Source of the DNA: Streptantibioticus ferralitis | GTDB lineage: Bacteria > Actinomycetota > Actinomycetes > Streptomycetales > Streptomycetaceae | Assembly: GCF_029223525.1 (NCBI RefSeq) | Contig: NZ_JARHTQ010000017.1 | Span: forward strand, 1-64,000 | Length of the DNA stretch: 64,000 nt | Direction: 5' to 3' | The notes under the pieces: generated by a model | Seen by the model: the letters and a program-made list of their open reading frames with translations, nothing else | Database searches by the model: none | Told to the model about the DNA's origin: nothing | Program-made: the position numbers and the translations under genes | Part shown: positions 9,529-53,122 of the stretch, piece by piece | Position numbering within the stretch: position 1 is the stretch's first letter | Layout of the letters: the number at the start of each line of letters is the position of its first letter

Positions 9529-9645
9529 GTTGGGCACCGCCGGGGAGCATGGGCCTTGCCCGCGACTTCCCGGGGGCTCGCCCCACATCATCCGCCGAGA
9601 TGGCCGGTAACCCCGCGGCGTGGACCTGCGGTCCCGCCCCGGCCG

Positions 9646-9690
9646 CACCCCGCGATGAGCGGGGTGGCCGGGGGACAACTCACCCCGGCC
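9646..9690. terminator. Bidirectional double-hairpin terminator
   Basis: Two perfect stems sit between convergent genes. CACCCCGC (9646-9653) pairs with GCGGGGTG (9659-9666) over a 5-base loop, and GGCCGGGG (9666-9673) pairs with CCCCGGCC (9683-9690) over a 9-base loop. There is no U-run, as is common in streptomycetes. The position suits termination of both the GH1 operon and the allantoicase operon. Confidence 0.6.
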
Positions 9691-40798: not shown

Positions 40799-41518
40799 AT
40801 GCCGCAAGCGGCGCAGAGCGCACCCGCGCTGGCGCTCGTCGTCGAGGACGACGCGACCCTGGCCGAGGCCCTCACCACCGCACTTGAAGTACACGGCCAC
40901 CGGGTCGAGACGGTCGGCGACGGCCGCCTCGGCCTGGAGCGGATCCGTACCGCCGCGCCCGATGTCGTACTGCTCGACGTGATGCTGCCGCAGCTGGACG
41001 GACTGACCGTCTGCCGCCGGGTGCGCGCCGACGGGGACCGTACGCCGATCCTGATGCTCACCGCGCGCTCGGCGGTGGCCGACCGGATCGACGGGCTCGA
41101 CGCGGGCGCCGACGACTACCTGCCCAAGCCGTTCGATCTGGATGAACTCATCGCGCGGGTAAGGGCGTTGCTCCGCCGCGCGCAGCCGGGCCCCGCACCG
41201 GATCTGCCGGAGGAGCTGTCCTTCGGGGACCTGGTCCTCGACACCCGCACCCGGCGGGCCCGGCGCGGCGGCCGGAGCATCGACTTCACCCGCACCGAAG
41301 CCGCGCTGCTGGAACTGTTGATGACCAATGCCGGACAGGTGCTGACCCGGGACCTGATCACCGACCGGGTGTGGGGATACGACTTCGGCCCGTCGTCCAA
41401 CTCCCTTGAGGTGTACGTGGGTTATCTGCGTCGCAAGCTGGAGGAAGGAGGCGAACCACGCCTCGTCCACACCGTGCGCGGTGTCGGGTATCTACTGAGT
41501 GAGCACCGCGATGGCTGA
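40799..41518 (+). CDS. OmpR-type response regulator
   Basis: A 239-residue two-component regulator. The receiver domain has the acidic pair EDD near residue 16, the phospho-Asp in LLDVMLPQLDG (about 60) and the Lys in PKPFDLDELIARV (about 110). The C-terminal winged helix (residues 140-237) ends RLVHTVRGVGYLL. ATG 40799 follows GGAGG. Its stop lies inside the start region of the kinase gene, so the pair is coupled. The target genes and stimulus are unknown. Confidence 0.95.
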   Translation: MPQAAQSAPALALVVEDDATLAEALTTALEVHGHRVETVGDGRLGLERIRTAAPDVVLLDVMLPQLDGLTVCRRVRADGDRTPILMLTARSAVADRIDGLDAGADDYLPKPFDLDELIARVRALLRRAQPGPAPDLPEELSFGDLVLDTRTRRARRGGRSIDFTRTEAALLELLMTNAGQVLTRDLITDRVWGYDFGPSSNSLEVYVGYLRRKLEEGGEPRLVHTVRGVGYLLSEHRDG

Positions 41519-42851
41519 GGACCGGCGCCCGGAACGCCGCGCTCCGCTGCGGCTGCGGCTTGCGGTGGCCACCACGTTGGCCGTCGCCGCGGTCGCGGCG
41601 GCCGTCTGCGGGGCCGCGTACCTCGCCGTCGGCCAGCAGCTCGGCCATGAACTGAACCTCAGCCTGATCCGCGAGTCGAACCGGGTCGTGCCGCAGGTAC
41701 GGGCCGGAGCGGCGCCACCCGGCGGCGAGTGCGCCTGGTTGGCCTCCCCCGACTGTGTGCAGGTGGTCCACTCCGATGGCACGGTGACGCCCGCCCCGGA
41801 TCCCTACGTGCCGCCGGTGGTGCCCGGCGCGGTGGCCGTGGCGAAGGGCGAGCGGGGTGCGTACTTCACCGATTCGGCCTCCCAGGGCCTGCCGTTCCGC
41901 AGCTATGTCGCCCCGGCCGGGCAGGGCCGGGCGGTACAGGTGTCCATGCGGACCGACTCGATCCAGCACAGCGAGCGCCGGATCGCGGTGGCACTGGTGG
42001 TGATCGGCGGGGCGGGCGCCGTGCTCGCCGCGGTACTCGGCCATGCCGTGGCCCGTACCGGACTGCGGCCGGTGGCCCGGCTCACCCGGACCGCCGAGAC
42101 CATCGCGGCCACCCGCGATCCCGGCCATCGCATCGATGTGCCGGGACGCGACGAGTTGTCCCGGCTGGCGGGCAGCTTCAACGTGATGCTGGGCGAGTTG
42201 GAGCAGGCGCTGGACGCCCGTCGGCAGATCGTCGCGGACGCCTCGCATGAGCTGCGCACCCCGCTCACCGGGCTGCGGACCAATATCGCGCTGCTGTCGC
42301 ACGACTTGACGGACGGGCAGCGGCGGCGGGTGAACAACGCGCTGTCCGCGCAGATCACCGAGATGAGCGGGCTCGTCGATGATGTGATCGAACTGGCCAG
42401 GGGCGATGAGACGTCCGGTGAACCGGAGGATGTGCGGCTCGACGAGATCGTGCGGCACTGTGTGGCGGCGGCTCGCCGCCACTCGCCCACGACACGGTTC
42501 GAGGTGGCACTTGAGCCGTGTGTGGTGCGCGGTGTTCCGGCGCGGCTGGCGCGTGCGGTCACCAATCTGCTCGGTAACGCCGCGAAGTTCTCGCCGCCTG
42601 ACGCGCCGGTCGAGGTGCGGCTCGACGGGGGTGCGCTGACCGTCCGCGATCACGGGGCCGGGTTCGCCGAAGTGGATCTCCCGCATGTCTTCGACCGGTT
42701 CTACCGGTCGCAGTCGGCCCGCGGGCTGCCCGGCTCGGGACTCGGCCTCGCCATCGTCCAGCAGGTGGCCCATGCCCACGGTGCCCACGCCGAGGCGCTC
42801 AACGCCTCGGGCGGCGGGGCGTTGTTGCGAATCCGCTTCCCTACGGCGTAG
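41499..42851 (+). CDS. Sensor histidine kinase
   Basis: A 450-residue membrane kinase, partner of the preceding regulator. It has one membrane helix at about residues 20-40, an extracytoplasmic sensor of about 125 residues with a Cys pair (ECAWLASPDCVQV), a second helix at about 160-182, and a HAMP domain. The phospho-acceptor follows in DASHELRTPLTGL (about 250), then the ATPase with N-box LLGNAAKF and GLPGSGLGLAIVQQ. GTG 41499 or ATG 41511 could be the start; neither has a strong ribosome site because it overlaps the upstream gene. The two extracytoplasmic cysteines could form a disulfide or redox switch. Confidence 0.93.
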   Translation: MSTAMAEDRRPERRAPLRLRLAVATTLAVAAVAAAVCGAAYLAVGQQLGHELNLSLIRESNRVVPQVRAGAAPPGGECAWLASPDCVQVVHSDGTVTPAPDPYVPPVVPGAVAVAKGERGAYFTDSASQGLPFRSYVAPAGQGRAVQVSMRTDSIQHSERRIAVALVVIGGAGAVLAAVLGHAVARTGLRPVARLTRTAETIAATRDPGHRIDVPGRDELSRLAGSFNVMLGELEQALDARRQIVADASHELRTPLTGLRTNIALLSHDLTDGQRRRVNNALSAQITEMSGLVDDVIELARGDETSGEPEDVRLDEIVRHCVAAARRHSPTTRFEVALEPCVVRGVPARLARAVTNLLGNAAKFSPPDAPVEVRLDGGALTVRDHGAGFAEVDLPHVFDRFYRSQSARGLPGSGLGLAIVQQVAHAHGAHAEALNASGGGALLRIRFPTA

Positions 42852-42926
42852 GCTCCGCGCCTGCGGATCTGCCATGGTGACGGCCCGTCCGAACACCGCC
42901 GACCCGCGCCGCGGGGGTTACTCGCC

Positions 42927-43157
42927 ATCGCGGCGGATTTCCTTCGCCAGCGCGGCGACCGATCGCCGCCGGTCCCTGTCATCGTGGTTCCTCGCCATCG
43001 CGGCGGATTCATTTCGCTGCCGCAGCGATCAGTCACTGCACGTCCTCATCACGGGAGTTGTACGCCTTATCACGGGAGTTGTACGCCTTCGCGGCGGATT
43101 CTCCTCGCTGCCGCGGCAACCAGTCACCACCGGTCCGCATCACGGAAGTTCCGCGCC
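42927..43157. repeat. 70-bp tandem repeat, three units
   Basis: Units begin at 42927, 42997 and 43088 with (A/T)TCGCGGCGGATT. Unit 1 is exactly 70 bp. Unit 2 is 91 bp because a 21-bp segment (ATCACGGGAG followed by TTGTACGCCTT) is duplicated in tandem within it; 91 minus 21 is 70. Unit 3 is again 70 bp. A partial fourth begins at 43158. Seventy is not a multiple of three and no convincing protein is present. The region lies between the convergent kinase and xdhC genes (42852-43598). That gap otherwise holds the 59-bp repeat, the 30-bp repeats and the MITE-like element. Confidence 0.7.
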
Positions 43158-43179
43158 GATGCGGCGGCAACACCATTCC

Positions 43180-43238
43180 GCCGGGGACGGCGAGCAACCG
43201 CCGCGGCGTGGACCGGCGGTGTCGACCGGCCGCAACCC
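43180..43238. repeat. Interspersed repeat, copy A
   Basis: This 59-bp stretch opens GCCGGGGACGGCGAGCAACC and ends ACCGGCCGCAACCC. It matches the stretch 53064-53122 with about eight mismatches and two single-base gaps. Both copies lie in gaps between convergent genes. Confidence 0.65.
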
Positions 43239-43274
43239 ACCGCATCCCGACGGGCGGAACGCCAGAACACCCCC

Positions 43275-43365
43275 AGCCCGCCGAACGGCGAAACCACCAC
43301 CCCCAGCCCGCCGGACGGCGAACCCACCACACCCGAGCCCGCCGAACGGCGAAACCAGCGCATCC
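43275..43365. repeat. 30-bp tandem repeat, three units
   Basis: Units start at 43275, 43305 and 43336 with AGCCCGCCGAACGGCGAAAC or a near copy (second unit GGACGG). Each contains the small palindrome CGCCG-AA-CGGCG. The periods are 30 and 31 bp with no distinct spacers, so it is a minisatellite-like repeat. Confidence 0.65.
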
Positions 43366-43386
43366 CAACCGGCCGGAACGGCGCGG

Positions 43387-43602
43387 CTAGTACTGCAACC
43401 GCACCTGCCACGTCATCGCAGGTCAGAAGCGGTGCGGCGGTCTCCGAACAGTGCGGGGTGGTCTACGGCCGGGCACCACCGCGCCCGGGCAAGCGCGATT
43501 CAGCAGGTCAGCGCCACGTTCGCCTGACGGCATATCAGTTTCTGTCGCCCGACGCACCCGCTCCGACCTGCGCCGATCCGCCGAGTGCGGTTGCAGTACT
43601 AG
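43387..43602. mobile_element. MITE-like element with 18-bp inverted ends
   Basis: CTAGTACTGCAACCGCAC at 43387-43404 is the exact reverse complement of 43585-43602. Inward of this the ends stay related for about 36 more bases, including CGCAGGTC and GGTGCG on each side. The unit is 216 bp, has no transposase frame, and is bordered by CTAG at both ends, which could be the target duplication; IS5-group elements often use such sites. It is best read as a non-autonomous element or a deletion remnant of an IS. Its right edge forms the stop codon of the accessory gene xdhC. Confidence 0.75.
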
Positions 43603-44747
43603 GCCACCGAGTGGACGCGACCCGCGGAGTGGGTCGCGTCATGGTGGATGGAGGTGTGCGCACCGGTCAGCGGGACGCCGCTGCCGCCCCTGCGATGGGC
43701 GACGATCTCGGCGGCGATGGACAGCGCGGTCTCCTCGGGCGTGCGGGCGCCGAGGTCCAGGCCGATGGGCGAGCGCAGCCGGGCCAACTCCAGTTCGGTG
43801 ACGCCCGCTTCACGCAGCCGGTCGAGCCGGTCCAGATGCGTACGGCGGGACCCCATCGCGCCGACGTAGGCGACCGGCAGCCGCAACGCCCGCTGCAGCA
43901 GCGGGATGTCGAACTTCGCGTCATGGGTCAGAACGCACATCACCGTGCGCGCGTCCAGGACCTGGGAGTCCAGATAGCGGTGCGGCCAGTCCACGACGAC
44001 CTCATCGGCCTCCGGGAAGCGGGCCCTGGTGGCGAAGACCGGGCGGGCGTCGCAGACGGTCACCCGGTAGCCGAGGAACTTCCCCATCCGCACCACCGCG
44101 GCCGCGAAGTCGATCGCGCCGAAGACCAGCATCCGAGGCGGCGGAACGCTGGATTCGACCAGCAGCGTCAGCGGTTCGCCGCAGCGGCTGCCGTCCGCTC
44201 CGACCTCGACCGTGCCGGTGCGTCCGGCCTCCAGCAGCGCGACGGTCTCAGCGCGCACCGTGCCGTCGAGCGCCGGATCGCCGAAGCCGCCCTCGTACGC
44301 GCCGTCCGCTGTCACCGCCATGGTCCCGCCGAGCAGCTCGGCGGGACCCTTGACGATCCTGGCCACCGCCGCCGCCTGTCCGGCGGCAGCGGCGGCCAGC
44401 GCACGGGCGACCTCCGGCCGGGCGGCCGGGTCCACCCGCTGGACGAAGATGTCGATGATTCCGCCGCAGGTCAGGCCGACGGCGAAGGCATCCTCGTCCG
44501 AGTACCCGAAGCGCTCCAGAACCGGCACGGCCGCGTCGCCCGCCTGCAGCGCCTGCTGGCACAGCTCGTAGACCGCTCCCTCGACACACCCGCCGGACAC
44601 GCTGCCGATGACGGTGCCCTCGGCGTCGACGGCGAGCGCCGCGCCCGGCTGCCGTGGCGCGCTGCCGCCGATGGCGACCACTGTCGCGACCGCGAACGGA
44701 CGCCCGCGCTCGCACCAGTCCAGCAGCTCGTCAGCGATGTCCAGCAT
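43599..44747 (-). CDS. xdhC: XdhC-family molybdenum-enzyme maturation factor
   Basis: A 382-residue XdhC/CoxI protein, which binds and sulfurates the molybdenum cofactor before insertion into xanthine dehydrogenase. The N-terminal domain has SVSGGCVEGAVYELC and LTCGGIIDIFVQ. The C-terminal Rossmann domain has LVFGAIDFAAAVVRMGKFLG, VVDWPHRYL, YVGAMGSRRTH and SPIGLDLGARTPEETALSIA. Both halves are intact. The last codons (GRVHSVA) run into the MITE-like element, whose CTAG gives the stop codon, so the native C-terminus may have been longer. It is the last gene of the xanthine dehydrogenase cluster, 14 bp after the permease. Confidence 0.93.
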   Translation of the reverse strand: MLDIADELLDWCERGRPFAVATVVAIGGSAPRQPGAALAVDAEGTVIGSVSGGCVEGAVYELCQQALQAGDAAVPVLERFGYSDEDAFAVGLTCGGIIDIFVQRVDPAARPEVARALAAAAAGQAAAVARIVKGPAELLGGTMAVTADGAYEGGFGDPALDGTVRAETVALLEAGRTGTVEVGADGSRCGEPLTLLVESSVPPPRMLVFGAIDFAAAVVRMGKFLGYRVTVCDARPVFATRARFPEADEVVVDWPHRYLDSQVLDARTVMCVLTHDAKFDIPLLQRALRLPVAYVGAMGSRRTHLDRLDRLREAGVTELELARLRSPIGLDLGARTPEETALSIAAEIVAHRRGGSGVPLTGAHTSIHHDATHSAGRVHSVA

Positions 44748-53015: not shown

Positions 53016-53063
53016 CGCCTCCCGGCGGGGGGTTTGCCGCCGGACAGTTCGACCCTGATGTCC

Positions 53064-53122
53064 GCCGGGACGGCGAGCAACCACGACGCCGTGGTTCCGC
53101 GGTGCCGAACCGGCCGCAACCC
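53064..53122. repeat. Interspersed repeat, copy B
   Basis: This is the second copy of the 59-bp repeat at 43180-43238. It includes the hairpin AACCACG-ACGC-CGTGGTT. It sits between the 3' ends of the TPR gene and the GntR gene, the same kind of convergent gap as copy A. Confidence 0.65.

Follow-up and report, generated by a model that had tools for sequence, protein, structure and literature searches.

A short IS701-type element probably inserted at the stop codon of an intact xdhC gene in Streptantibioticus ferralitis

We interpret 208 bp of DNA beside xdhC in Streptantibioticus ferralitis as a non-autonomous, IS701-derived element that inserted at a YTAR target including the xdhC stop codon and left XdhC unchanged, a reading to which we assign a probability of about 0.9. 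The element lies in a 64-kb stretch of DNA (64,000 nucleotides, hereafter the window) that is contig C19 of an 8.8-Mb, 110-contig draft assembly. The features on which the argument turns are these:

41499-42851, plus strand: histidine kinase gene, convergent with xdhC across the intergenic region (an ORF; the kinase was named from reading the sequence, not from a family search).
43387-43390, no strand: left target-site duplication, CTAG (CTAA at the second copy; YTAR at the scorable borders of IS701 relatives).
43391-43598, no strand: probable 208-bp non-autonomous IS701-type (MITE-like) element (second copy at 95% identity; search for pairs of terminal inverted repeats; without a transposase ORF).
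43391-43404, plus strand: left terminal inverted repeat, TACTGCAACCGCAC, exact, with imperfect symmetry to about 43440 (repeat search; ends of autonomous elements).
43585-43598, minus strand: right terminal inverted repeat (repeat search; comparison of ends).
43599-43602, no strand: right target-site duplication, CTAG (minus-strand 43601-43599 is the xdhC stop codon TAG).
43599-44747, minus strand: xdhC, encoding a complete 382-aa XdhC/CoxI-family molybdoenzyme maturation factor (Pfam PF02625 and PF13478; orthologues end ...VHSVA*).

A repeat search recovered inverted arms of 54 nt (43387-43440 and 43549-43602) that are 76% complementary, with the outer 18 bp exact, and an exhaustive count of exact inverted repeats in the window, with arms of 18 bp or longer and a span of no more than 400 bp, found none besides 43387-43602. 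CTAG stands at both borders of this interval; the window holds only 12 occurrences of it, where base composition would predict about 171. A first-pass annotation had reported the 18-bp repeat with its inward imperfect symmetry, the two CTAG borders and the lack of a transposase within the 216 bp, and had proposed a MITE-like element. These observations hold, and the ORF list of the window places no transposase ORF inside 43391-43598. The borders can additionally be refined: because the second copy carries CTAA on both sides, CTAG is a target-site duplication and not part of the element. Thus, the element proper is 208 bp long, beginning with TACTGCAACCGCAC and ending in its complement, and its inverted repeat is 14 bp exact with an imperfect extension.

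The second copy was found by searching the organism's own assembly (C46:48020-48239) and is 95% identical over the full length. It measures 213 bp, differing from the window copy by two short mid-element indels and a handful of substitutions, and these two, next to unrelated genes, are the only copies in the draft genome. Copy 2 adjoins an EamA-type transporter gene ending GGT TAG, where the duplicated target is TTAG, and the EamA orthologues of two genomes of the same genus (G001 and G002) have TAG at the same codon without the element. Both copies lie directly after the stop codon of the bordered gene, in the same orientation at the two sites.

The xdhC product contains the XdhC_CoxI and XdhC_C domains, and its gene ends GCC TAG, the last sense codon and stop that together contain CTAG. 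The earlier reading, in which the right border provides the TAG that ends xdhC, is correct. Its further proposal, that insertion had replaced the native end of the gene, is contradicted by the comparison of C-termini: the orthologues in G001 and G002 are 90% identical to the window protein and end ...VHSVA* at the same codon, with a TGA stop in G001, a TAG stop in G002 and no element at either. Thus, nothing of xdhC was replaced. The C-terminal residues SVA are frequent in more distant XdhC orthologues too. That XdhC is complete, as had been suggested, is borne out by its domains and orthologues, for another reason than the one first implied: the insertion fell on the native stop of xdhC, which the duplication restored. 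The stop position is native in the genes beside both copies. Since the 4 bp that were duplicated include this stop codon and one copy of them was kept on the side of the gene, XdhC is unchanged.

Autonomous elements with the same ends connect this element to the IS701 family. The 14-bp end was searched as a pattern in 298 genomes of the family, yielding inverted pairs. One such pair, in a Streptomycetaceae MAG (G023, C247 616-1998), has ends about 1.38 kb apart, both identical to the 14 bp of the window element, with TTAA on both sides, and encloses a gene for a 365-aa transposase scoring 435.6 bits against the NCBIfam IS701 model NF033540 (cut-off 150) and matching Pfam DDE_5. The identical 14 bp occur at both ends of the autonomous element of locus L085, and 13-14 bp of them at L153 and L155 and on Streptomyces plasmids. 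G241, with CTAG on both sides, and Kitasatospora aureofaciens also carry elements that combine these ends with a similar transposase; the G241 element has full-length relatives on Streptomyces plasmids at 83-88% identity over 98-100% of its length. Duplication of a YTAR target is generally regarded as a rule of the IS701 family as a whole. In nine plasmid IS701 elements that we read, two of which (L219 and L224) share identical flanks and represent one insertion site, YTAR lies immediately outside TACTGCA(A/G)CCGCA at 17 of 17 scorable borders. According to a published survey, IS701 members in Deinococcus duplicate nTAG (PMC10017437). A search for IS701 and YTAR together found no report in the literature collection used.

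A point against this connection is that the draft S. ferralitis genome yielded no intact autonomous element with exactly these ends, a fragment on C38 having a TACTGCAACGG end; since the genome is a draft, the donor could be missing from it. An intact-looking IS701 on C32 was considered as the exact donor and rejected, as its ends differ. In that element (L144 1254-3256), TACTCCAGCCGTAG-like ends that have CTAG close by enclose an IS701-type transposase gene (438 aa). A third copy of the end lies inside it (2646-2668), separated from the outer copy by an ORF that looks, on visual inspection, acetyltransferase-like, and the element is possibly an IS carrying a passenger gene.

As the ends and target rule of IS701 are shared and a transposase is absent, we classify the element as a MITE-like, non-autonomous IS701 derivative. 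Like bacterial MITEs, it is short and non-coding, with inverted ends in common with an insertion sequence (14 bp with the G023 element, 13-14 bp with others), a target duplication and more than one copy, and both orthologous sites are empty in G001 and G002. Its copy number, two in this genome, is by comparison very low. With autonomous Streptomycetaceae members of the IS701 family (NF033540, PF13546 DDE_5) it shares TACTGCAACCGCA(C) over 13-14 bp, a terminal inverted repeat identical to ends flanking IS701 transposases, and the 4-bp YTAR/nTAG duplication (CTAG and CTAA). It differs in having no DDE transposase gene of its own, in being 208 bp rather than about 1.4 kb long, and in an interior that shows no recognizable descent from the IS701 elements that we found; it is thus a relative of IS701 insertion sequences and not itself one. 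From the shared ends, we infer that the element was moved in trans by an IS701 transposase. Such an enzyme would have linked the TACTGCAACCGCAC termini to a YTAR site, in this case the CTAG that the final sense codon of xdhC (GCC) makes with the TAG stop. Repair would then have duplicated the 4 bp, one stop-containing copy staying with xdhC, and only the downstream sequence would be new.

No near-identical copy of the short element was found in 120 sampled genomes besides its own; searching relatives outside this genome with the 216 bp gave short partial matches only (best E 3e-6), the plasmid collection gave no match, and the inner sequence resembled no IS701 element that we found. Pairs of the terminal repeat 192-222 bp apart occurred, among 395 genomes of the family, only in this genome (the two copies) and in G037. 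The terminal repeat combined with YTAR matched 16 stretches in genome contigs, four being Streptomycetaceae loci and the rest scattered over unrelated phyla. A repeat-like match at C21:36794 was set aside as a chance coding match, as it lies inside an ORF and its motif is common to coding-looking matches in G026 and G241. Diverged elements of about 204-209 bp are present in Actinacidiphila soli (L086 175-383, and L151) and G037 (C143 3042-3245). They have the same ends and length class as the window element, and the A. soli copies also have the subterminal CGCAGGTC motif in common with it, whereas their interiors have diverged and their border duplications are degenerate or lost (TTAG/TCAG-like, TTGG/CTCG). 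In A. soli (G022 C291 and C163), two near-identical 209-bp copies lie beside a truncated transposase-like reading frame.

The intergenic region in which the window copy lies varies within the genus. The distance from the histidine-kinase block to the xdhC block is about 4 bp in G002, 112 bp in G001 and about 750 bp here, where the remaining gap (42852-43386) also contains several units of a repeat that is dispersed in genomes of this genus. This GC-rich repeat of about 62 bp lies at 43177-43238, with an inverted copy at 42881-42937, and also at 9591-9651 and 53061-53122. We detected at least 38 matches in each of two genomes, this one and G002, and 10 in G001, often as inverted pairs, from only about 35 candidates scored per genome, so that true numbers may be higher; it is almost absent from 23 other genomes of the family or order. 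It looks like a genus-specific REP-like family, and a single unit folds no better than shuffled sequence. Two tandem arrays lie nearby: three 30-bp units of CACCCCCAGCCCGCCGAACGGCGAAACCAC (43268-43358) and about two 21-bp units of CCTTATCACGGGAGTTGTACG (43044-43089).

The position between convergent genes raises the question of whether the element has been kept as a terminator or a stabilizer of the 3' end of the mRNA. A long GC-rich hairpin does lie directly 3' of the stop in both bordered genes, in the same orientation. There are only two sites, however, and a shared orientation at two sites has a probability of one half; a terminator scan found none inside the element, and the relatives manage without it. 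We consider such a role unlikely, and the element appears to have no needed function.

The coincidence of insertions with stop codons invites an explanation in terms of target choice. Besides the two copies, an IS701 transposase fragment on C38 (L145 1233) has a TACTGCAACGG end immediately behind a 323-codon frame that ends ...IGIAN*; the TAG stop of this frame lies within a CTAG flank, and the fragment is probably a third case of stop-codon insertion in this genome. One of the nine plasmid IS701 elements sits on an annotated stop, and the remaining IS701 insertions that we looked at lie mostly off stop codons. Base rates came from 464 kb sampled from this genome, with approximate calls from a home-made gene finder (350 genes, 79% of the sequence). 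The sample contained 190 YTAR sites, among which 135 were intergenic, 29 in predicted coding sequence, 25 on predicted stops (about 13%) and one at a gene edge; for CTAG alone, stops accounted for 18 of 74 non-coding sites (24%). As YTAR sites are rare, mostly non-coding and on stops in about 13% of cases, no special targeting of stop codons is needed. The stop insertions are consistent with site availability; numbers are small, and we do not claim active targeting. It is decidedly doubtful that YTAR-targeting IS701-type elements in GC-rich actinomycetes reach stop codons frequently enough, with target duplication restoring them reliably enough, for these codons to form a safe landing niche beyond what site availability provides. 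That the family actively seeks stop codons is very unlikely: the two copies, the C38 fragment and the plasmid case speak for it, but YTAR avoids coding sequence, so a few matches to stops are expected by chance, and most relatives are elsewhere.

That the 216 bp belong to the host and not to mobile DNA, being intergenic sequence conserved as, for example, a structured RNA or a terminator, is extremely improbable. The first-pass annotation had named a conserved single-copy intergenic sequence as the alternative. The 216 bp do fold better than shuffled versions (z -3.7), yet any sequence with inverted ends does so; they occur twice, at unrelated genes with differing border duplications, are absent from the orthologous sites, and Rfam gave no match over 43000-44000. 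The idea that xdhC was truncated by an insertion into its 3' portion, with the element border providing a fortuitous stop, can practically be dismissed: the stop is physically within the border duplication, but G001 and G002 share the end codon and the residues VHSVA, and two orthologues of the EamA gene likewise stop with TAG at the codon bordered by copy 2.

The preferred reading is thus a non-autonomous IS701-derived insertion, with the MITE-like character first proposed now resting on a second copy, differing 4-bp duplications, the empty sites and the autonomous IS701 elements with the same ends. This is an ordinary mobile-element insertion, and the annotation of xdhC should read intact. 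More broadly, YTAR-targeting elements in GC-rich genomes are steered off coding sequence, and since the target that they duplicate includes the stop, they can land on TAG or TAA stops and leave the gene unharmed. This accounts for genes that seem to owe their stop codon to a transposon, and it counsels caution against calling such cases truncations.
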